From contig NZ_KB233222.1 in NCBI RefSeq assembly GCF_000314855.2, positions 1,460,559 to 1,524,558 on the forward strand: DNA of 64,000 bases, written 5' to 3'. Below the pieces are notes generated by a model. The model was not told the DNA's origin. It saw only the letters and a list, made by a program, of their open reading frames with translations, and did not search any database. This DNA comes from Providencia burhodogranariea DSM 19968 (GTDB lineage Bacteria; Pseudomonadota; Gammaproteobacteria; Enterobacterales; Enterobacteriaceae). Position 1 is the first letter of the stretch. Each line of letters begins with the position of its first letter. The translations under genes and the position numbers were made by a program. Positions 3,605 to 40,774 of this stretch are shown piece by piece.

Positions 3605-6361
3605 TTAGGACTCCTGTTTTTTCAGAAAAACAACACTGAGACCAATCACAATAGGGATCGTAATCAATAGTGGGATAAAAGAGGTTTGTAAATCAAACAA
3701 GTTTAATCCTTTAGAAAAGGTACCTCGAGTTATTGTCAGAAAGTGAGAAGTTGGATAAATCATCCCAACCCAACGTCCAACCCCTTCTAGTGAAGATACT
3801 GGGTCAATCATGCCTGAAAATTGGGTTGCTGGAATTAACGTGATGATAGCCGTACCAAATATTGCGGCGATTTGACTCTTCATAAAGCAAGATATTAGCA
3901 GCCCCATTCCCGTTGCGATGGTGATATATAGAAATGCCGCCAATGTCAGCGTTAAAAAACTGCCTTTAAAACTCACGCCAAACACAAACACACTAAGTAA
4001 ACAGAGCATCAAAAAGTTAAACATGCCTAACATGATGTAAGGCAGTTGTTTTCCCAACAAAAATTCTAATTTGGTGATCGGGGTAACATAGAGGTTAATC
4101 ATCGAGCCGAGTTCTTTTTCTCTCACCACGCTTAATGCACTTAGCATTGCTGGGATCATCATTAATAGCAGTGGAATAACCGCAGGAACTATCGCTGGTA
4201 AGCTTTTAACGTCAGGGTTATAGCGATAACGTGTTTGGATATCAATAACAGGGATTCCGGCAACTCCTGCTGGTTGTTTAGCCGCCATGGTACTTAACCA
4301 TGCTAGATGCATTGCTTGAATGTAACCTCTCACGGTTTCTGCACGGTTCGGCATCGCGCCATCAACCCACACGCCAATTTTTACGGAATGACCTCTGGCA
4401 ACATCGCGCGCAAAATTCGGGGGAATTTCTATTGCTACACTGACTTCACCACTGCGTAATGCTATCTCGAGCTCATCATAATCTTGCAGTGGGGGTTGTT
4501 CGATAAAGTAACGAGAACCTGCAAGATTTAGTGTATATCCTTGACTTAACCCTGTTTGGTCGCGATCTAGTACGGAAAAACGTAAATTTTCCACGTCCAT
4601 ACTGATACCGTAACCCATGATAAACATCAAGATCACCGTCCCTAATAATGCAAGTGTCGAACGTACGGGGTCTCGACGAAGCTCCATTCCTTCACGAATA
4701 CTGTAGCTAAATAATCGACGTAAACTAAAACGACTCTTTAGCGCTTCATCTGCTTGTTTTTTCAATTCAGGATCAACATGGAATTCTGGCGCAGTGTCTT
4801 TAGTTGTCCCCGCTTCACCCACTGCATCTTGCAAATAAGCAATAAAGGTTTCTTCAAGCGTCTCAAGGCCTCGCTTCTTGATCAGATTATTTGGTGTGTC
4901 GCAATCAAGTACTTTACCCGCATGCATCAATGAAATACGGTCACAACGCTCCGCTTCATTCATAAAGTGGGTTGAGATGAAAATAGTGACGCCGTCACGT
5001 CTGGAAAGGTCTACCATCAAATTCCAAAACATATCGCGCGCTACAGGGTCAACTCCTGATGTCGGCTCATCGAGTATCAACATTTCTGGGCGATGAATGA
5101 CTGCGACGGCTAAGGATAGTCGTTGACGAATGCCTAATGGCAAATCATCTGGCATGGTATCGCGAACATCTTCCAAATCAAATCGTTGGCACATTTCATT
5201 AATGCGCTCACTAATCTGGTTTTCAGGAATGTGAAACAACTTGGCATGTAACACTAAGTTTTGTTCAACTGTCAGCTCACTATAAAGTGAAAATGCTTGT
5301 GACATGTAGCCGACACGCTTTCGGGTTTCAATATCTTTCGGATCGATTTCTTGGCCAAATAACCAAGCTTGCCCTTCACTCGCCGGTAATAGCCCCGTTA
5401 ACATTTTCATGGTGGTGGATTTACCACAACCGTTAGATCCTAAAAAACCGAATATTTCACCTTTTGGAATTTTAAAATTGACATGATCGACGGCCACAAA
5501 TTGCCCAAAGCGCATGGTTAAATCTTGAGCTTCGATAGCAATAACATTATCATCAGAAGTATCACGAGGCGGAATAACGACTTTTTTATGTCCGCTACGC
5601 TTGTCTTCTGGTAATAATGCAATAAAAGCCGCTTCAAGATCATCGCATTGAGTTTGAGATTTCAGCTCGGATGCATGACCTGTTGCCATAACCTTCCCAT
5701 CATCCATTGCAACTAACCAATCGAAACGCTCAGCTTCTTCCATATAAGCCGTTGCCACCAACACACTCATATTGGTTTGCCGTTCACGGATACGGTCGAT
5801 CAAATCCCAAAACTGTGCGCGTGATAATGGATCAACACCCGTTGTCGGCTCATCAAGGATCAATAATTCAGGGTCATGGATTAATGCACAACAAAGACCC
5901 AGTTTCTGTTTCATCCCTCCCGAAAGCTTTCCAGCAGGTCTATCTTTAAATGGTGCTAATCCGGTACTTTTCAATAAATCTTGAATACGGTATTGACGCT
6001 CTTCTTTAGATTGACCAAATAAACGCCCAAAAAAGTCGACATTTTCATAAACAGACAGTGTGTGATACAAGTTTTTGCCTAACCCTTGAGGCATATAGGC
6101 AATTCTTGGACATACGGCGCGGCGATGTTCTTCACCAGCCATATCCCCATCTAGCACAATGACTTTGCCTTGCTGGATTTTTCTCGCACCTGCAATTAAT
6201 GAAATCAGGCTTGATTTACCAACACCGTCAGGGCCAATTAAGCCAACCATTTTTCTGGCTGGAATTGTTAACGTAATATCATCCAACGCACAATTATTAC
6301 CGTAATATTGGCTGACATGGTTTATATCAACTATCACATCATCCATCAATTTATAGGTCAT
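3605..6361 (-). CDS. rbbA: ABC transporter ATPase/permease RbbA
   Basis: The 918-aa fusion has two nucleotide-binding domains followed by an ABC-2 permease domain. NBD1 has Walker [10 protein letters not shown] (about 43) and signature LSGGMKQ; NBD2 has GSNGCGKST (about 300) and a degenerate signature LPLGIRQ, as in E. coli RbbA. From about residue 550 there is an N-terminal helix, a periplasmic loop and a cluster of C-terminal helices. E. coli RbbA (911 aa) was reported as a ribosome-associated ATPase, but the operon context suggests an exporter with the HlyD-type YhiI and YhhJ. Its ATG overlaps the yhiI stop by four bases, so the two are translationally coupled. Confidence 0.93.
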
Positions 6362-7428
6362 TGTGGTAATTTCACCTCAAGATCAGTTGGCCATTGCGCA
6401 CTAGGATCTAAACGGACATATGCTTTACCGGGTAAACCCGTTTTGACATATTCTAGGTGCTTTTCCAATAACTCAGGGGAAATACGGGCACGAACTCGGA
6501 ACATCAACTTCAAACGCTCATTCTGAGTTTCTACTGTTTTTGGTGTGAATTGTGCGACGCTAGCGACAAAAGTTGTTTTTGCTGGGATGACAATATTTGG
6601 TGCTGCATCTAATACGATATGAACCTGACCGCCTAATGCGACCTTTCCTGCCTCTTCAGTCGGCAAGAAAAACGTCATATAAACATCACTAAGATCGACC
6701 ATATTCAAGACACGCCCCCCTGCACCCAATACTTCACCGGGTTCAGCAACTCGATATTGGATACGCCCATCACGCGGTGCTTTCAGTACACTATCATCTA
6801 AATCCGCCGTAATACGTCGTTCAGTTGCTGTTGCCGCCTCAACACGTGTTTTGGCTTGAACAATACCTGCCTTGGCAGAATCAATTGCAGCAACAGAAGC
6901 GGCTACTTGTGCTTTTGCAGCTTCAAGCGCCGCTTTAGATCCTTGCATTTGAGCTGTATCATCATCAACTTGCTGTTGCGAAACTGCATTAGTTTTAACT
7001 AATGCGCGAGAACGATTAAGCCGTTTTTGTGTAGCATCAAGTTCAGCTTCGCGCTGATGAACAACTGCTTGCGCTGCAAGCTTTTCACTTTGACGCTGAG
7101 TTAAACTTGACTCAGCAGTGACAACAGAGCTGATAGCTTGACGTAATTGCGCTTGAACCTCATGAAGTTGTTCTTGTAGTGCCCGAGTATCCATTTTAGC
7201 AAGAACTTGCCCTTCCTTAACAAAATCGCCTTCCCTCACCGTAATAGCCTCTATTCTCCCAGCAGTTTTCGTCGCGATATCAATTTCAGTTGCTTCTATA
7301 CGGCCATTACTTTGCGCAAAACCGGCAGGTAAATTGCTAGCATTTACATTCCAATAATAAAAACCACCTGCAATAATAATTAAGATAATAGCGACATAAA
7401 AAACCATTTTTTGCTTATTTATTTTCAT
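6358..7428 (-). CDS. yhiI: HlyD-family membrane fusion protein YhiI
   Basis: This 356-aa periplasmic adaptor is close to the 355 aa of E. coli YhiI. It has one N-terminal transmembrane anchor (about 8-28), a biotinyl-lipoyl-like half ([20 protein letters not shown]), a long alanine- and glutamine-rich coiled-coil hairpin (about 75-205), the second lipoyl half ([18 protein letters not shown]) and a beta-barrel domain. It would bridge the RbbA/YhhJ pump to an outer-membrane channel. The start at MKINKQK has an AAGGGTGG ribosome site; 15 further in-frame residues upstream do not align. It is the first gene of the operon. Confidence 0.92.
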
Positions 7429-7779
7429 ACCACCCTTCTTTTTTCTCTTATGAAGAAAACAGTTAATTTCCAATTAAAATATAAAAATTCATTTTTTTAA
7501 TTTCGTCTAAAAACAATCAACTCAGTAAAATAAAAAATGATTTATTAAAAATCAAAATTAAATATCATTTTTTATGATGACATGCATGCGATTACTCTAT
7601 CTATTTAATTTTTCAGTATTTTAACTCATTTAACTTTAGGTTAAACAGCCTAGCATCACAAAAAATAATATTTTAAATATAAAATTACTTTTTAGTGTTT
7701 ATTGTTTTTTTAATGCAAGAAATAATGCTAACAAAGAATTTTGTTAGCATTATTATGTTATATATTATTAATTGTTTTT
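7429..7779. other. AT-rich promoter region of yhiI-rbbA-yhhJ
   Basis: About 350 bp without a gene. It should carry the yhiI promoter, but I see no clear promoter boxes in its A/T-rich sequence. The only distinct structure is the hairpin at 7721-7754. Confidence 0.4.
7721..7754. terminator. Perfect 15-bp hairpin after the GNAT gene
   Basis: AATAATGCTAACAAA and TTTGTTAGCATTATT pair perfectly around a GAAT loop, 25 nt beyond the stop of the acetyltransferase gene. It has no direct U tract on the minus strand, so it is only a candidate terminator or mRNA-stabilising structure. Confidence 0.5.
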
Positions 7780-8256
7780 TTAGTTAGCGAATTTAGCAAT
7801 AGTTTGCTCATCCATACGATAACGCACCCATTCATCTTGTGGTTGCGCACCAATACTTTTATAAAAGTCTATTGCGGGCTGATTCCAATCTAATACGCTC
7901 CACTCTAATCTCTGACACTTTCTTTCACAGGCAATTATTGCAATGTGTTTTAGTAATTTTTTACCTGCCCCTGCTCCACGATATTCTGGTGACACATACA
8001 AATCCTCTAAATAAATTCCATTGTTACCCAACCAAGTCGAGTAACTGGTAAAAAAGACCGCATAACCAGCAGGCTTATCATCTACATAACAAATTAATGC
8101 TTCAGTATTGGAGTTTTCACCAAATAGCGAGATTTCGATATCAGTAACTGAGGCTTTAACTTCATGACGCGCTTTCTCATAATCAGCTAATTCAATGATC
8201 ATCTCAAGAATGAGTTGAGCATCTTTAATGGTTGCTGGTTTTATTTCGACTTTCAT
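7780..8256 (-). CDS. GNAT-family N-acetyltransferase
   Basis: The 158-aa protein is a single GNAT domain. The acetyl-CoA-binding motif A is visible as LYVSPEYRGAGAGKKLL (about 92-108), followed by WSVLDWNQPAIDFYKSIGA, which is typical of the diamine/thialysine acetyltransferase (SSAT-like) branch. It probably transfers acetyl to an amine in the cytosol; the substrate cannot be fixed from the sequence. The ribosome site is AAGGGA and the gene appears to be monocistronic. Confidence 0.85.
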   Translation of the reverse strand: MKVEIKPATIKDAQLILEMIIELADYEKARHEVKASVTDIEISLFGENSNTEALICYVDDKPAGYAVFFTSYSTWLGNNGIYLEDLYVSPEYRGAGAGKKLLKHIAIIACERKCQRLEWSVLDWNQPAIDFYKSIGAQPQDEWVRYRMDEQTIAKFAN

Positions 8257-8459
8257 TTTCTATTCCCTTTTCGTTTAAGGCATAATTTTACGCTAATCGT
8301 TCTATGCCACACAGCAGCCAGCAATTTTATTCATAATATCATTACGATAATTAAAATAATTTATGCTTGTTATCGATAATTTTTAATTGATACTAATTGT
8401 TCTCATTTGCTATGATGCAAACATTGTTCAACAGTAGATAAAAAAGGAGGCTAATTATT

Positions 8460-8561
8460 ATGTTGTGTGTTCTTATTAAATACTCACACTTCTTTGGTGA
8501 TTGCCTGGCAGGGATTTCACAGTTATATACTGCGATAACCCTGCCAGAGAGAAGCTATTAA
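8460..8561 (+). CDS. 33-aa leader peptide upstream of ABC-F gene
   Basis: ATG at 8460 follows an ideal ribosome site, AAAAAGGAGG, with 9-nt spacing, much stronger than that of the downstream gene. The peptide begins MLCVLIKYSHFFGDC and ends ITLPERSY before TAA at 8559. Its coding sequence contains both arms of a strong hairpin and the AAGCT segment that can compete for the ABC-F start region. It looks like a regulatory upstream ORF. I do not recognise the peptide, and translation is inferred only from the ribosome site and position. Confidence 0.6.
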   Translation: MLCVLIKYSHFFGDCLAGISQLYTAITLPERSY

Positions 8562-8637
8562 AGAGATTTTTCTCAGCTTACTGGGTTGTCGTCCTGACGA
8601 ATCCTAGGTATTTCTATACCTAAAAATTGAGTAAGCT
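8505..8637 (+). promoter_or_regulatory. Structured leader with alternative hairpins (attenuator candidate)
   Basis: Hairpin 1: CTGGCAGGG (8505-8513) pairs with CCCTGCCAG (8539-8547), with an inner CAGT/ACTG stem. Hairpin 2: AAGCT (8552-8556) pairs with AGCTT (8575-8579), enclosing GAGA/TCTC. Hairpin 3: AGCTTACT (8575-8582) pairs with AGTAAGCT (8630-8637), enclosing TAGGTAT/ATACCTA (8605-8622). Hairpin 3 hides the weak GAG ribosome site and ends 2 nt before the ABC-F ATG. Hairpins 2 and 3 share AGCTT, so they exclude each other. This is the layout of translational attenuation controlled by ribosome position on the leader ORF. Confidence 0.6.
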
Positions 8638-8639
8638 CT

Positions 8640-10385
8640 ATGCGCACATTATTATCTGTAAAATCACTAAGCTATAACACCTCTACAAACATTCTATTCA
8701 ATGACATTACGTTCAGTCTACAAAGCGGCGATCGTATTGGCCTTATTGGTCATAATGGCAGTGGTAAAAGTACATTACTGAAACTTTTAACCCACCAATT
8801 AGCCCCCAATAGCGGTAACATCACTTATTCAAATCAGTGCGTCACGGCCTATATTGAGCAACATATCCCAATTGAGGTCGCAGACTTACCCTTAATCGAT
8901 GCCATTATGCAAAAAATCCCTTCGCAAGAGCGTCTTGCTGAGCGCTGGCGGGCAGAAGTTTTGCTCACAGATTTAGGCTTTATCGAAGATCAGTGGACAC
9001 AAAAAACTAATGAGATTAGTGGTGGTCAGCACACTAGATTACTTTTAGGGAGAGCATTAATTCAACAACCTGATTTAATGTTGTTAGATGAACCTAGCAA
9101 CCATCTAGATTTGCCTACTCTTATTTGGTTAGGTAATTTTTTGCGTCAGTGGAAAGGCAGTTTTGTATTAGTTTCTCATGATCAACAACTACTGGATAAT
9201 GTCACAAATTGCACGTGGATCTTGCGAGATAAAACGTTGCATTTCTTCCAACTTTCTTGTTCCGCAGCCCGACAAGCACTCAGTCAGAAAGATATTAGTG
9301 ATGAAAAACGATATCAAGCAGAACAAAAAGAGATTGATCGGGTTGCATCCAGTGCTAAGCGCTTAGCAATATGGGGTCATGTTTATGATAACGAGGGTCT
9401 CTCTCGTAAAGCTAAACAGATGGAAAAACATATTGATAGGCTTAAACAAGTCCAGACTGAGCTAACGGAAGGTTACCAATGGAAATTGGCGTTAAATGGT
9501 AAATTAATTCCTGCAGATAGAGTCTTTGAGTTAGATCATGCAACCGTAGCTACGCAAGATGGGAGAATGCTTTTTACCACTGGTTTTCATCAAGTTAAAA
9601 GTGGTGATCGTATAGCAATTATTGGTGCCAATGCTTGTGGAAAATCAACGTTACTACGGTTGTTGTGGCAGTGTTTTCAAGATGATATCCGCTATAACTC
9701 ACAATTGAAATTCCACCCATCTATCAGTACAGGCTATTATGACCAACAGCTTCAACAACTTAACGATAATGACAGTTTGTTAGAAGCGTTAAGGCCATTT
9801 GCCAGTTTAGTCGATGAACAACGAAAAATGGCATTAATAGGTGCCGGATTTGCTTACCTTCGTCATCAGCAAAAAGTGTCCACTCTGAGTGGTGGTGAAC
9901 GTGCAAGATTATTATTTATTGGTCTGAGTCTAGCTCAATATGAACTCATTTTGCTTGATGAACCCACTAACCACCTTGATCTTGAAGGCAAAGAAGCACT
10001 TAGTGAACAAATTTCGCAGTTTGAAGGCGCCTTGCTTGTCGTTAGTCATGATAAGTGGTTGATTGAAAATAGTTGCCAGCGCTTTTGGTATATCAACGAT
10101 AATAAATTGGAAGAGTATCTCGATGTTGACGATATTTATCAGAGAATTGAGCTGCAATCTCGATTCCAAAGTGATACGCCAGCGAGTGATACAACATATT
10201 TATCCAATCTTCATGAGGCTGAATCTCAGGCTATTCCTCATGAAGATGAATTATTGGAAACATTGCTATCACTTGAGGATAAATTACACGCTGATAGGCA
10301 ACGTAAATTGGCTCACCAAAAACCACAACTTCAACAACTGTGGATTGATAGAATAAAAAAAATAAAAGCGCAACTTAGCCTATAA
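8640..10385 (+). CDS. ABC-F subfamily ATPase, possible ribosome-protection factor
   Basis: This 581-aa soluble protein has two ABC domains and no membrane segments. ABC1 has Walker A GHNGSGKST (about 38), signature SGGQHTR and Walker B LMLLDEPSNHLD. The inter-domain linker (about 190-290) is charged and helical, the position of the tRNA-interacting arm in ABC-F factors. ABC2 has GANACGKST, LSGGERARL and LILLDEPTNHLD. A basic, glutamine-rich C-terminal tail (about 535-581) resembles a coiled coil. It does not look like EttA, YbiT, YheS or Uup. ABC-F proteins act on ribosomes, either housekeeping or resistance. The structured leader upstream suggests induction by translation stress; the resistance role is inference. 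Confidence 0.85.
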   Translation: MRTLLSVKSLSYNTSTNILFNDITFSLQSGDRIGLIGHNGSGKSTLLKLLTHQLAPNSGNITYSNQCVTAYIEQHIPIEVADLPLIDAIMQKIPSQERLAERWRAEVLLTDLGFIEDQWTQKTNEISGGQHTRLLLGRALIQQPDLMLLDEPSNHLDLPTLIWLGNFLRQWKGSFVLVSHDQQLLDNVTNCTWILRDKTLHFFQLSCSAARQALSQKDISDEKRYQAEQKEIDRVASSAKRLAIWGHVYDNEGLSRKAKQMEKHIDRLKQVQTELTEGYQWKLALNGKLIPADRVFELDHATVATQDGRMLFTTGFHQVKSGDRIAIIGANACGKSTLLRLLWQCFQDDIRYNSQLKFHPSISTGYYDQQLQQLNDNDSLLEALRPFASLVDEQRKMALIGAGFAYLRHQQKVSTLSGGERARLLFIGLSLAQYELILLDEPTNHLDLEGKEALSEQISQFEGALLVVSHDKWLIENSCQRFWYINDNKLEEYLDVDDIYQRIELQSRFQSDTPASDTTYLSNLHEAESQAIPHEDELLETLLSLEDKLHADRQRKLAHQKPQLQQLWIDRIKKIKAQLSL

Positions 10386-10889: not shown

Positions 10890-11432
10890 TTAACGACCTT
10901 TAGCTGTCAATACCAAGTTAACCTGCTCAATCCGTTCTACTGCACTATTAATAATCTCAACAACTCGGGTTGATTGTTCTTTTGTCAGCTCTTGCAAAAC
11001 AATTTTATGCCGTAACAGCGACTTAAATTTATCAACCGCAAGTTCGACTTCTTTAGCAAATTGATTGCCCGCTTTAAGTTCTTGCGCATAGCTCAGTTTT
11101 AATTTTACTTCTGCGAGCATATCAGCTTGCAGCAGTAAACAACATTTACCTTCCGGTGTCAGTGAATAGCATTTACGCCCTTTTCCCTGCTCTTTTTGCG
11201 CAACAATAAAGCCTAACTCCTCCAACAAAGTCAGTGTTGGGTATATCACACCAGGGCTTGGGCAATAAAAACCTGCTGTTTCTAGCCCTATTTTTTTTAT
11301 CAGCTCATAGCCATAATTAGACCCATCGGCTAGCAAATAGAGAATATAGACACGCAATTGCTTTGGGTTAAACATGCGACTTAAGCTTTTGCCATCGCAG
11401 GTACATTGACCTGCCTGTTGTTCATTCGTCAT
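10890..11432 (-). CDS. yqjI: PadR-family metal-responsive regulator YqjI
   Basis: This 180-aa regulator has a Cys-containing N-terminal extension (GQCTCDG), a PadR winged-helix domain (about 25-100, including YGYELIKKIG and SPGVIYPTLTLLEE) and a helical C-terminal dimerisation part. This is the build of E. coli YqjI, a nickel/iron-sensing repressor of itself and of the ferric reductase gene yqjH. Upstream lie a 15-bp inverted repeat and a Fur-like box, as expected for such an intergenic region. However, no yqjH is present on the other side, so its target set here is unclear. Confidence 0.75.
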   Translation of the reverse strand: MTNEQQAGQCTCDGKSLSRMFNPKQLRVYILYLLADGSNYGYELIKKIGLETAGFYCPSPGVIYPTLTLLEELGFIVAQKEQGKGRKCYSLTPEGKCCLLLQADMLAEVKLKLSYAQELKAGNQFAKEVELAVDKFKSLLRHKIVLQELTKEQSTRVVEIINSAVERIEQVNLVLTAKGR

Positions 11433-11893: not shown

Positions 11894-13102
11894 TTAGCCA
11901 ATATTTGGCAGAATACTAAATGCAATTCCTAATTGAATACCGATGACGATGATACCGCACAGGAATACGATTAATAATGCAGGTACTCCACCTTTGACTT
12001 GGTATTTACGGTCATTCACCAATCTTGATTTAAATACCATTGCGCTCGGTAATAGTAGCGCGAGAATTGATAAAGCAATCGCTGCAAATCCTAACGCCAT
12101 GACAAAACCTCGTGGATAAAACAGAGCGAAAACAAGTGGAGGTAAAAATGTCAGTATTCCAGTTTGTAGGCGACCAGCGAAATTATCTTGCCGTTTGAAG
12201 AAATCCGCTAAGAAATCAAATAAACCTAAAGCTACACCAAGGAATGATGTCCCTAAAGCCAGGCTCATAAACATTTGAGCAATAAATTCCGTTCTACCTG
12301 ACATTACTACGTTACGAATGGCATCTAACAAGCCGTTTAATCCCGAATTTTCAGCCAAAATTCCGACAAAAGTTGTCGTGCTAATACTACCCAGTGTAGC
12401 GATTTGCCATAAAATATAAGCAAACAATGGAATAGCACTACCGATAATAAAGATGACCCGCAGTTTTTTTACATTGCCGCCCATATATTTCACGATACTT
12501 GGCACACTACCATGGAAGCCAAATGAGGTAAAAAATACGGGGATTGCAGATAATATCAATACTTTTTCAGTCGGCGCAGAGAGTAAGTTTTGCTGTTCAA
12601 CATGAGGCATCATCAGCGCCAAAATAATCACGAGAAAGACAATTTTAGCGGCAAATAAAATACGATTAATAAAATCGACAGATGAAGTACCAAAACAAAC
12701 GATACCACCACCAATAACTGTAAATAAAATAATTCCTATCCAATCTTCCATTTCAATCGCTAATGTACTTTTTAGATTAGAAGTAATAATTTCACCCGCA
12801 CCGCTAACATAAGCAGCTGTCAGTGCATACATTAAGAACATCATGCTAAAACCGGTGATATATTTACCACCAGAGCCTAAATATCGTTGAGCGACACTGC
12901 CTATACCCGTTTCTGAGGATTCATGTTGGTATACCTCAACTAATAATAGCGCGGTATAACACATCAATGCCCAAAGTACGAACAACATCACAATGCTCAC
13001 CCCAAAACCATTACCAGCAGCTGCTATAGGCATAGCAAGCATACCGGCACCAATAGTGGTACCTGCGACAATAAGAACACTACCTAGCGTGCGATTTTTC
13101 AT
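11894..13102 (-). CDS. tyrP: Tyrosine-specific permease TyrP
   Basis: This 402-aa inner-membrane protein has about eleven hydrophobic segments and belongs to the HAAAP aromatic amino-acid permease family. The start MKNRTLGSV and the [12 protein letters not shown] motif match E. coli TyrP (403 aa) almost exactly. It imports tyrosine with protons, or here perhaps exchanges tyrosine for tyramine. It starts 21 nt after the tyrosine decarboxylase gene with ribosome site AGGG, so the two form an operon supplying the decarboxylase. Confidence 0.92.
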
Positions 13103-13123
13103 ATTGAGACCCTAGCGACAGTT

Positions 13124-15064
13124 TTAAATAGTTATTTTTTGTTTGGAATGACTCTGTTTATTTTCTTCATCGATAAGCTGTTGCAGCTTGCCTGAAAAAA
13201 TATGTCTCAGTTCCGCCCAAAAATCAGCAAAATGCTGTTTATCGCGTAGGCAATGGGTCATGATTGCCGCTCTTAGAACATATAATGAATGTACTTTTTG
13301 CCATTCTTGATCGCTAAAACCTGCCTCACGGCAGAAATTTCTTGGATTATCGCCATATTCCTCAAAAGTTAATGAAGTTGACGACGTTAGAAAATCATTA
13401 GTATAAGAACGACCCGCAGCAAAAGAGCACAATTCATAAAGCCGTTTATTGAGCTGATTTTGCTTCTCTAAAGAAGTATTACCCGCTTCTTTAAACATAA
13501 AATTGACCATATGAAAATCAGGTGACGACATCGCACAAATTTCAAATCTTCGCCCATCAACCTCAAATGCTTCACTGGCATTCATCCCTTCAATCATCCA
13601 ATTTGCTGTCGTGACACCAGCGGCAATGACTTTGCCGTAACCTAAGATATTTAATGGTACCAAACGATGGGCGGCCCAAACGGCTGCGGCTGTAGCTCCC
13701 GCTTTAGACCCTTCCATGATTGAAGATCCCAATAAAACGTTTTGCTGTTTGTCTGTTTTATTGTTTTTTTCAGCGACTTCCTCAAAAACATATGCAGCAT
13801 GATAAGAAATAAGATCTACGATACGTTTGTCTTTCATACAAATGGCTCCCGCAGCATAAGGAATAAAGCCTACCTTATGCGGATCGACCGTAATTGAATC
13901 AACTTCCTGTAGTGCTTTAAAGCTTTGGTAAACATCCGGCTTTGGCCAAGTCACATCCTGAGGGAAAATGCCTTCAGTATGGTAACGTTTGATTAATGTT
14001 TCATATTCAATAAATTGGTTGTTTTCATCGCGGAACATTGCACAAGCATATCCAGCATAAGCGGCGTCGACGTGAATATAAAAAGAAACCCCAAAGCATA
14101 TTTCGCATTCTCGGCGCAATGTAACCAACTCAGCAACATTATCAATTGCACCTGTTTCCGTCGTACCTACAACGGCAACAACAGCCAAAATAGGTTCTCC
14201 CTTCTCAATCAATGAAAAAACTATCTGCCTCATCTGCGTAATATCAGTACGATAGCTTGCATTAACAGGCAATTGCACAATATTTTGTTGCCCCAATCCC
14301 AAAATATCCATCGCTTTCATCCATGAATAATGTTTTGATTGAGGAACCAATAACTTACCTAATTTACCTTGTTCTACCCCTTCACCACGGCAGGTCAAAT
14401 CACGCACTTCTTCAAATAGTTTTTGTTTTTTCAATTCATCGATAAGATCAAGAACAGCTGAAGTTTGCATATTCAATAATGCACTTTCTGATTTATCTTT
14501 GATTAATTTTTTCGCTTGAGGATGCTTCGCTATTGCTAATGGTAAGGTTTTAATATTACGAGCAACCCACAATCCTTCATAATTAGCGACTGTGCCGCCC
14601 GAAGTAATGTGCCCCCAAGATTGATGAACGTTATAACCAAACATGGCGCACAAATCTAATCCAGCTTCCAGTTCGAGTACCGTTGTTGTGGGTGATGACT
14701 CTTGAGCACAGTTGTTTGGGTTATACATCATAGCCATGACATAAGCGAGATTGGATATCATTAACGTATCCGCATTCATATGACCCATATAGCGAGGTGA
14801 AAACCAAGGAATTGATGTTGTTTTTAATTTAGAAGATAGTTGAGTTAAAATACCTTCGGTCCGATATAGCGTATCTCGGTATTCTGGCGCGTAACGATCT
14901 ACAGTTGTTAAATATTCCGGATCTTCAGGGTGGTATCCAGAACGCCAATGCATATGTTCTGTTACCGAATACTCCATCATTTCTTTGAAAAAAACTGCAT
15001 TTTCAGATTTTGGCCCAAGAAATAAAGCATCCACATTCATTTTCGAGTTATTAAAATTTGTCAT
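13124..15064 (-). CDS. tyrDC: Pyridoxal-dependent tyrosine decarboxylase
   Basis: The 646-aa protein is a group II PLP decarboxylase of the large bacterial tyrosine decarboxylase type (about 620-650 aa), which converts tyrosine to tyramine and CO2. The PLP-binding lysine is in SITVDPHKVGF (about 395); the substrate/cofactor region SWGHITSGGTVANYEG (about 150) and HVDAAYAGYA (about 335) are intact. ATG at 15064 has AAAGG ten bases upstream; a GTG two codons earlier lies too close to it. It is followed by tyrP. Providencia tyrosine decarboxylases are known to make tyramine in the animal gut and resemble enterococcal ones. The split between tyrosine and other aromatic substrates is not visible here. 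Confidence 0.88.
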   Translation of the reverse strand: MTNFNNSKMNVDALFLGPKSENAVFFKEMMEYSVTEHMHWRSGYHPEDPEYLTTVDRYAPEYRDTLYRTEGILTQLSSKLKTTSIPWFSPRYMGHMNADTLMISNLAYVMAMMYNPNNCAQESSPTTTVLELEAGLDLCAMFGYNVHQSWGHITSGGTVANYEGLWVARNIKTLPLAIAKHPQAKKLIKDKSESALLNMQTSAVLDLIDELKKQKLFEEVRDLTCRGEGVEQGKLGKLLVPQSKHYSWMKAMDILGLGQQNIVQLPVNASYRTDITQMRQIVFSLIEKGEPILAVVAVVGTTETGAIDNVAELVTLRRECEICFGVSFYIHVDAAYAGYACAMFRDENNQFIEYETLIKRYHTEGIFPQDVTWPKPDVYQSFKALQEVDSITVDPHKVGFIPYAAGAICMKDKRIVDLISYHAAYVFEEVAEKNNKTDKQQNVLLGSSIMEGSKAGATAAAVWAAHRLVPLNILGYGKVIAAGVTTANWMIEGMNASEAFEVDGRRFEICAMSSPDFHMVNFMFKEAGNTSLEKQNQLNKRLYELCSFAAGRSYTNDFLTSSTSLTFEEYGDNPRNFCREAGFSDQEWQKVHSLYVLRAAIMTHCLRDKQHFADFWAELRHIFSGKLQQLIDEENKQSHSKQKITI

Positions 15065-15472
15065 TATCACTACACCTTTAAATGATAGCTAACATGACTC
15101 TAGCTATATTTAAGTTAGTTAACTTATTATTATCATTGGAAAGTGATATAACGGAACACATGCCTTAAAAAGACAACAATATATTCATACTATTGTTATC
15201 TTTATCATTATTTAAATACTTAGGTAATAGACATGCCGTTAAAGAGCCAACTTGATTATAGGTATAATCCAAAATCATTAAAATATTAATAAACTCGTAT
15301 TTTTTTCAATCAGATTTGTGCGCGAGAACAAAATTCCGAAAAATTGTCTGTTGTAAAGAGATATTTACGCTAAAACAACTTGATAATGTAAAATATTTGT
15401 TATATTGAGGTTATTCTTTAAGCCATGTGAACTCACTTTTCAAATGGCTTAAAAACACCAAAAAATAATTAA
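15065..15472. other. tyrDC upstream region
   Basis: About 400 bp of AT-rich DNA that must hold the tyrDC promoter. I see no TyrR box of the TGTAAA-N6-TTTACA type. The one structure is TTTAAGCCAT (15417-15426) paired with ATGGCTTAAA (15444-15453), a likely but T-poor terminator of the quinone oxidoreductase gene. Confidence 0.45.
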
Positions 15473-40442: not shown

Positions 40443-40774
40443 ATCGAGTAGGAGACGGGATCACTCCCGTCGTCCTCTCACACCACCGTACGTACGGTTC
40501 CGTATACGGCGGTTCATGTTAACTCTGGAACTGCCGTTGCTGTTCCAACAATGATAGTAAGCCAGCCCTACGTAACATCGCGACTTTTATCGCTTGGTTC
40601 ATATGGCTGGCTCCCGAGTTCCACCACGCTCCTCGTTGGTTGCATGCTGAACTCCCTGCGCGCTCCTCGCTTAGATCCGCTAACATTAACTTCTTTGCGC
40701 GCGTATAGAGGACTTTTACCTCCAAGTCATCTGTTAACCTCCACAGTCAACAGACAGCACCAATCAAGGCGCAC
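40443..40774 (-). mobile_element. Group II (IIC-type) intron relic, 332 nt
   Basis: Read on the minus strand, the element starts GTGCGCC (40774 downward), the group II 5' signature, and ends CTACTCGAT (at 40443), the usual AY end. Near the 3' end ACCGCCGTA and TACGGTGGT form domain V, with a TACG-GAAC-CGTA upper stem and a CG bulge, very like class IIC domain V. A domain-VI-like hairpin GACGGGA/TCCCGTC follows. At 332 nt it cannot hold a reverse transcriptase gene, so it is an ORF-less or deleted copy. It sits 8 nt after the terminator hairpin at 40783-40803, exactly where IIC introns insert. Confidence 0.8.

Follow-up and report, generated by a model that had tools for sequence, protein, structure and literature searches.

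A probable ermC-type translational attenuator kept ahead of a chromosomal ABC-F gene in Enterobacterales

The stretch of DNA analysed here, 64,000 nucleotides of Providencia burhodogranariea DSM 19968 (contig NZ_KB233222.1, positions 1,460,559 to 1,524,558; hereafter the window), carries an intact gene for an ABC-F ATPase of 581 amino acids (8640..10385, forward strand, as are all features of the leader region). A short leader open reading frame (ORF; 8460..8561) lies upstream of it. Sequence comparison and RNA folding models indicate that this leader region is probably a conserved cis-acting translational attenuator of the ermC kind, kept together with the chromosomal ABC-F gene through the order Enterobacterales. 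Attenuators of the ermC type combine a strongly initiated leader ORF with four RNA segments; pairing of segments 1 with 2 and 3 with 4 is the off state and pairing of 2 with 3 is the on state. Here, too, a leader ORF stands upstream of a gene with a paired start site. The two alternative sets of pairings can form and respond to a ribosome in folding models, the 1:2 pairing with covariation and the 2:3 pairing without an excess of it.

According to the mechanism that we propose, the leader would be translated from its strong ribosome site, as its conservation suggests, and a ribosome finishing the leader would leave segment 3 to pair with segment 4, hiding the ABC-F start. A ribosome stalled or slowed with its peptidyl (P) site at about leader codons 15-21 would cover segment 1, so that segment 2, made of the last leader codon, the stop codon and the following bases, would pair with segment 3; segment 4 would then be freed and ABC-F made. 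We infer that ribosomes stall on the leader, the usual cause being drugs that act on the 50S subunit, and that the ABC-F protein would then rescue or protect ribosomes. Drug induction and a role of the protein in resistance are put forward in the same conditional sense. In the window genome the switch appears weakened and is frame-shifted, and it may be nearly always off.

The leader region in the window

An earlier note on this DNA had described a leader ORF, a weak ABC-F ribosome site and mutually exclusive hairpins, and that observation is confirmed. The ORF, 33 codons long in this copy, follows the ribosome site AAGGAGG (8444..8450), and the ABC-F gene has only the weak ribosome-site-like bases GAG (8629..8631). 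Segment 1 is CTGGCAGGG (8505..8513). Segment 2 (8533..8547) consists of two overlapping parts, CGATAACCC (8533-8541), which is able to pair with segment 3, and CCCTGCCAG (8539-8547), which pairs with segment 1. Segment 3 (8567..8591) is made up of TTTTTCTC (8567-8574), AGCTTACT (8575-8582) and GGGTTGTCG (8583-8591), and segment 4 is AGTAAGCT (8630..8637). A hairpin AGGTAT/ATACCT, with a counterpart in 39 relatives, lies between segments 3 and 4 (8606..8621), and a further hairpin, P1 (GTGTG/CACAC, 8465..8489), lies within the leader ORF.

Folding of positions 8440-8660 gave -67.5 kcal/mol (z = -4.82; 0/200 shuffles as good). In the free window RNA the strong 9-bp hairpin already noticed inside the leader ORF, CTGGCAGGG/CCCTGCCAG (8505-8513/8539-8547), has a pair probability of 0.91, and the AGCTTACT/AGTAAGCT pairing, which buries the GAG and ends 2 nucleotides before the ATG exactly as had been described, has one of 0.90. 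A different outcome was obtained for the pairing AAGCT/AGCTT, which the note had taken as the competing hairpin: its probability is 0.06 in free RNA and at most 0.09 (0.094) with a ribosome at codons 10-33. The AAGCT/AGCTT switch was rejected on these pair probabilities; the competing helix of the relatives is that of segment 2 with segment 3. The interpretation of the locus as a leader-controlled, inducible ABC-F gene is partly supported.

Distribution of the leader

In the window's genus the ABC-F gene was found in 22/24 genomes (73-100% identity) and the leader in 22/22. Twenty-one of these leaders have 27 codons and read approximately M[LMT]LCDLI[ED]YSHFFGNRQxSGFHSxxLR, the window copy being the exception. 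In a sample of the family, 78/295 genomes and 37/154 genera had the gene (E <= 1e-120), with the leader in 77/78; the gene of the sole genome without it is 46% identical. With the three genomes shared by both samples counted once, the leader accompanies the gene in 96/97 genomes. Six named records were added to give 102 leaders, of which 98 have 27 codons, 94 end in CGA-TAA and six in CGT-TAA. All 102 are preceded by an AAGGAGG-type ribosome site, partly by construction, as leaders were recognised only where an ATG followed an AAGGAG/AGGAGG-type site. The set excludes L104, which lacks a leader (46% identity), and L042, which is cut by a contig start and whose upstream region is represented by L105. 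When identical leaders were counted once, 98 of the 102 were distinct; 97 were folded, L105 being left out, and 39 of the 98 were used for an alignment and a covariance model.

The model found one match each in 30/394 genomes of the order, 12 of them outside the family with leaders of 25-26 codons. All 30 matches lie directly before the ABC-F gene and none ahead of another gene, and in the window's own genome the model found no second leader copy at E <= 1. By protein search the gene is present in 46/394 order genomes and the leader in 44/46: of the 16 genomes that the model did not match, 14 carry genes of 44-47% identity and a leader of 28 codons detected by ORF scan, and the other two, with genes of 38-40% identity, have none. 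The leaders of the other families, at 25, 26 or 28 codons, differ in length by whole codons, and the conservation in relatives, whose absence would have refuted the earlier note's reading, extends to five families. Among named genomes the leader is present in 80/80 (the best 80 of 123 relatives), with 27 codons in 75, 26 in three, 30 in one and 35 in one. Carriers include Klebsiella pneumoniae ATCC 13883, K. oxytoca, Enterobacter hormaechei and cloacae, Citrobacter, Serratia, Yersinia aldovae, Hafnia and Morganella. For E. coli, the Prodigiosinella gene had no DNA match in 20,395 records; three Escherichia plasmid records with protein matches were not inspected.

Some single leaders deserve mention. 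In Phytobacter (L089/L201) a frame shift extends the leader to 35 codons, and the leader of a Rahnella (L226) has 30 codons; both run past the usual stop, as the window copy does. The leader and ABC-F gene also occur beside ada and alkB in the 50.6-kb record of Morganella morganii plasmid p48659_1 (L109), which may be a piece of chromosome carried by a plasmid or else an assembly error.

The association of leader and gene bears on a different explanation, an autogenous gauge in which the leader stalls ribosomes unless ABC-F resolves them, so that the gene would be on whenever its product is short, drug or not. The leader was found solely with the ABC-F gene in the genomes searched by the model and does not precede the two more divergent genes, as this explanation would have it, and the consulted part of PMC10314930 describes MsrD action as suppressing its own leader-driven induction. 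However, the leader peptide varies between families, and VmlR is said in the same part of that paper to have no feedback on its own induction. We regard an autogenous gauge as unlikely.

Pairing segments and covariation in relatives

In most of the family, segment 1 is GCTCAAGC-GTTATCG and spans leader codons 18-23, and segment 2 is CGATAAC-nnnn-GCTTGAGC, which begins with the final leader codon, CGA, and the stop codon TAA. Segment 3, CTTCnCTCGGGC-TTACCGG-GTTATCG, resembles segment 1, and segment 2 can pair with either of them. When segment 3 is not paired with segment 2, its GCTTAC forms 3:4 with the GTAAGC at the start of ABC-F. Among the 39 aligned relatives, pairing in the outer helix of 1:2 reaches 99.4%, and 2/8 of its pairs have changed on both sides; the inner helix is 73.6% paired. 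The main helix of 2:3 is 98.2% paired and its remainder 83.7%. The 3:4 core is 98.3% paired and nearly invariant; it encloses two hairpins, one 76.4% paired and the other, which is the counterpart of the window's AGGTAT/ATACCT just before the ABC-F start, 97.4% paired and covarying in 4/5 pairs. Over 98 sequences, 90.6% of the P1 cells are paired and two pairs have changed on both sides (in four and one sequences), although slid versions of P1 gave similar or higher covariation scores. Covariation, for which the earlier note had proposed an alignment of relatives, was found for 1:2 and not in excess for 2:3.

From clade to clade the 3:4 core has been rewritten without loss of its pairing: it occurs as AGCTTACT/AGTAAGCT, as GCTTAC/GTAAGC and as GTTTAC/GTAAAC, and the main Vibrio-like clade has CTCAAG/CTTGAG. 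Clades were labelled by kinship in the searches and by resemblance of the leaders, without a tree, and 'Vibrio-like' and 'Aeromonas-like' are guessed labels, only one Vibrio having been identified by name. In a cross-clade duplex test of 132 leaders, a clade's own pairing was favoured in 5/5 clades for 1:2 and in 4/5 for each of 2:3C (the exception being the first Vibrio-like clade), 2:3D/E (the exception being the Morganellaceae-like clade) and 3:4 (the Aeromonas-like clade being a tie). As its 1:4 control was mixed too, this test is taken as suggestive. In the Aeromonas-like genomes L142-L155, the leader contains GCTCTTGC, the complement of GCAAGAGC at the start of the ABC-F gene; a direct 1:4 pairing, and with it a different layout of the switch, is possible in that clade.

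Folding with a ribosome on the leader

The 97 leaders were folded downstream of a ribosome whose leading edge was set 15 nucleotides 3' of the first P-codon base. Helix probabilities were used, since accessibility averaged over the ribosome site and start codon proved too blunt. Without a ribosome the mean probabilities of the main 2:3 helix and of 3:4 are 0.46 and 0.41. When the P site is at codons 15-21, the former rises to 0.75-0.87 and the latter falls to 0.09-0.19; the main 2:3 helix is at 0 from codon 24 onward, and 3:4 stands at 0.76-0.79 at codons 26-27. When opening was defined as a gain of more than 0.1 at the start site against both the finished and the empty leader, 64/97 leaders opened, as did 27/582 shuffled leaders. 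The idea that the ribosome's position near the leader end selects the hairpin therefore held in the folding of most relatives, where the burying of the start depends on position, but with 2:3 as the competing helix instead of the one that had been proposed, and weakly in the window copy. The window leader opens by 0.02; whichever ribosome position was tried, its 3:4 pairing kept a probability of 0.61-0.98, and its main 2:3 helix reaches 0.35 at one codon. The P. mirabilis leader behaves like it.

Leader peptide and RNA constraint

We compared the ratio of nonsynonymous to synonymous differences (pN/pS) along 89 distinct 27-codon leader ORFs, a set that does not include the window leader. In the Enterobacteriaceae outside the window's clade, pN/pS is 0.77 in codons 2-8, 0.68 in codons 9-17, 2.4 in codons 18-22 and 2.3 in codons 23-27. 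The corresponding values in the window's clade are 0.34, 0.08, 1.35 and 1.17, and the low ones suggest that the peptide counts there in codons 2-17. Outside the paired segments, residues 13-16 ([FL]-[GS]-[DN]-R) are among the better kept, and they sit at the edge of the codon stretch that opens the switch. Ser19, within segment 1, is invariant (89/89 leaders) and encoded by TCA in 88/89. Amino-acid attenuation was rejected, as the leaders showed no run of one codon.

These data could also be explained by a drug-specific nascent-peptide arrest, in which the leader peptide, like ErmCL and MsrDL, would itself sense a single class of 50S drug while the RNA switch would only relay the signal. The strong peptide-level selection on codons 9-17 in the window's clade and the well-kept residues 13-16 are consistent with it. 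So is the invariant Ser19, as chloramphenicol stalling is strongest directly after Ala, Ser or Thr (PMC12121999, in the portion available). Against it, the peptide is only weakly constrained in codons 2-17 of the other Enterobacteriaceae and differs between families, and Ser19 would be kept by the pairing of segment 1 alone, given its nearly uniform TCA codon. Arrest of this kind is possible, if somewhat doubtful. An ermC-type attenuator can also be pictured in a wider form as a stall meter present in well over 100 Gammaproteobacteria. In that form any ribosome slowed within a stretch of seven codons would be sensed by the leader, through the geometry of the RNA and not through a fixed peptide, and the leader would call up a dedicated ABC-F rescue factor that clears ribosomes and so ends its own induction. 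This is a speculative extension to which we give little credence.

Several results weigh against the ermC-type attenuator itself. The 2:3 pairing shows no covariation excess in the 39 sequences (496/500 shuffles score as high), its main helix being almost invariant. The 3:4 pairing is weak in the Aeromonas-like clade, and in the duplex test the 1:4 control came out in favour of a clade's own pairing for three clades and against it for one. Without a ribosome the model is about even, with 1:2 at 0.51 and 2:3 at 0.46 and with 3:4 at just 0.41, so that in the model the empty leader is not clearly off, the free RNA being split between states; the clearest off state would be a leader with a ribosome near its end. 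No clear opening was obtained for 33/97 leaders, including the window copy, P. mirabilis and K. pneumoniae, the last of which falls short because its empty leader is already open (it does open against the finished leader). In the Enterobacteriaceae other than the window's clade, the leader appears to be conserved in its 3' part as RNA and not as peptide.

The last of these points, together with a free RNA that is not clearly off, would suit a control of the gene by RNA structure without leader translation, through Rho, a protein or RNA regulator or temperature, with the ORF incidental. However, the ribosome site and the length of the leader ORF are kept, length differences amount to whole codons except in two frame-shifted copies among the 102 (the window leader and one Phytobacter leader), and pN/pS is below 1 in codons 2-17. 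Control of this sort seems to us quite improbable, and the translated attenuator is preferred.

The window copy as an outlier

In the window leader, a 2-nucleotide deletion after SHFFG shifts the frame and extends the ORF to 33 codons. With its shifted frame and the weak switch predicted by the model, this copy appears a poor example of the system. Folding with and without a ribosome footprint, a check suggested by the earlier note, gave different answers for the relatives, most of which open, and for the window copy, which shows no clear opening. It may be that the switch of this genome has decayed, leaving ABC-F nearly always off and a working system in the relatives only; the deletion, the small opening and a 3:4 pairing that persists at every ribosome position tried fit such decay. 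On the other hand, the 1:2 hairpin has been rebuilt by changes on both arms compared with the relatives in the genus, and therefore some selection may remain. Moreover, segments 2 and 3 could still form a duplex of -21.2 kcal/mol, the main 2:3 helix gains some probability at one codon, and the ABC-F ORF is intact. We give decay slightly less than an even chance.

The ABC-F protein

The Pfam family ABC_tran matches two stretches of the protein. Its AlphaFold model (mean predicted local distance difference test score, pLDDT, 81.9) shows a pair of ABC domains and a linker that forms a helical hairpin (residues 207-271, with helices 207-248 and 252-271). The closest solved structures are VgaL, human ABCF1, VgaA, VmlR2, EttA and PoxtA, with Z scores (30.6-32.8) so similar that the structure search did not tell a resistance from a housekeeping ABC-F. 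The protein scored 339.4 bits against NCBIfam NF000355 (ribosomal protection-like ABC-F), under the 380-bit cut-off. As the earlier note had stated, it is not one of the four E. coli ABC-F factors: it lies far below the cut-offs of EttA, Uup and the models PRK10636 and PRK15064, which we take to be YheS and YbiT, and the other ABC proteins of its own genome are at best about 35-45% identical to it, over parts only.

The phylogenetic comparison with resistance subfamilies, also proposed in the note, placed this ABC-F group in a clade of its own (support 100/99, with a long-branch warning), to which neither Vga/Msr nor OptrA nor three further ABC-F proteins of the same genome belong. Lsa(E) and one ABC-F protein of the genome (524 amino acids) were removed by a motif filter, and another of its ABC proteins was also left out of the tree. 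The group is probably the separate subfamily PAF1. That name is drawn from the genus distribution in PMC6723617 (Murina 2019) and the comparison is with PAF1 as described there. In the part of that paper available to us, PAF1 is a subfamily of Proteobacteria, with Vibrio, Enterobacter, Klebsiella, Serratia and Citrobacter and not Escherichia, and is predicted to be an unrecognised resistance factor; relatives of the window protein were found by name in its genera. The word 'leader' has no hits in the main text of PMC6723617, and no later work on PAF1 was found in the literature searched.

Relation to known systems

By its description ermC resembles the present system in its leader ORF with a strong ribosome site, its four segments, the pairings proposed here and the buried downstream start. 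It differs in that it controls an rRNA methylase, whereas the gene here encodes an ABC-F protein and the leader peptide varies; here, moreover, the leader has 27 codons and its stop codon lies between the arms of the 1:2 hairpin. The likeness to vmlR, cplR, msrD and lsa(A) consists in a short ORF before an ABC-F gene and in stalled ribosomes that decide the RNA structure (PMC9226507, PMC10201436 and PMC10314930, in the sections available). In the accessible text of PMC10201436, the upstream ORFs (uORFs) named are very short (MRI, MIN, MK[LQ], MAGN). Such leaders act largely through intrinsic termination and belong to Gram-positives, whereas the leader described here has about 27 codons and occurs in Gammaproteobacteria. 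A simple pattern scan of two leaders, in window positions 8250-8700 and in the K. pneumoniae region, found no intrinsic terminator, and transcription attenuation was rejected on that ground. As far as the consulted portion of PMC12121999 goes, toiL-topAI of E. coli is likewise an enterobacterial uORF that senses several ribosome-targeting drugs, but it controls a toxin-antitoxin gene and involves Rho termination, which sets it apart by description.

No earlier description of a leader before this ABC-F gene was found in the literature searched, most subscription papers and all preprints lying outside it, and the available text of the uORF4u and Pseudomonas translation-control papers makes no mention of one. 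The conserved leader would offer a handle on the protein, as whatever stalls ribosomes on it would point to the job of ABC-F. In addition, the control of ABC-F genes by leaders, for which the passages cited above give Gram-positive examples, would be extended to the chromosomes of common Gram-negatives.

Other features of the locus

A candidate promoter, TTGATA-18-TATGAT with TG ahead of the second hexamer (8387..8416, 10/12 consensus matches), is weak, as the consensus scan of 8250-8700 gave four sites against 2.4 expected in shuffles; the same scan of the K. pneumoniae region found none. At the gathering score Rfam has no match at the leader, and its sole match in the window is a group II intron (RF00029, 48 bits) at 40443-40514 on the reverse strand. 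About 2 kb from the ABC-F gene lies a gene for a second ribosome-linked ATPase, RbbA (ribosome-associated ATPase; NF033858, 1583.6 bits; 3605-6361, reverse strand), accompanied by an HlyD-like gene (6358-7473). On the other side, a gene for the tyrosine transporter TyrP adjoins a tyrosine decarboxylase-like gene (11894-15070, reverse strand; 651 bits for the latter, under the model's 905-bit cut-off), with a PadR-type regulator nearby (10890-11432).

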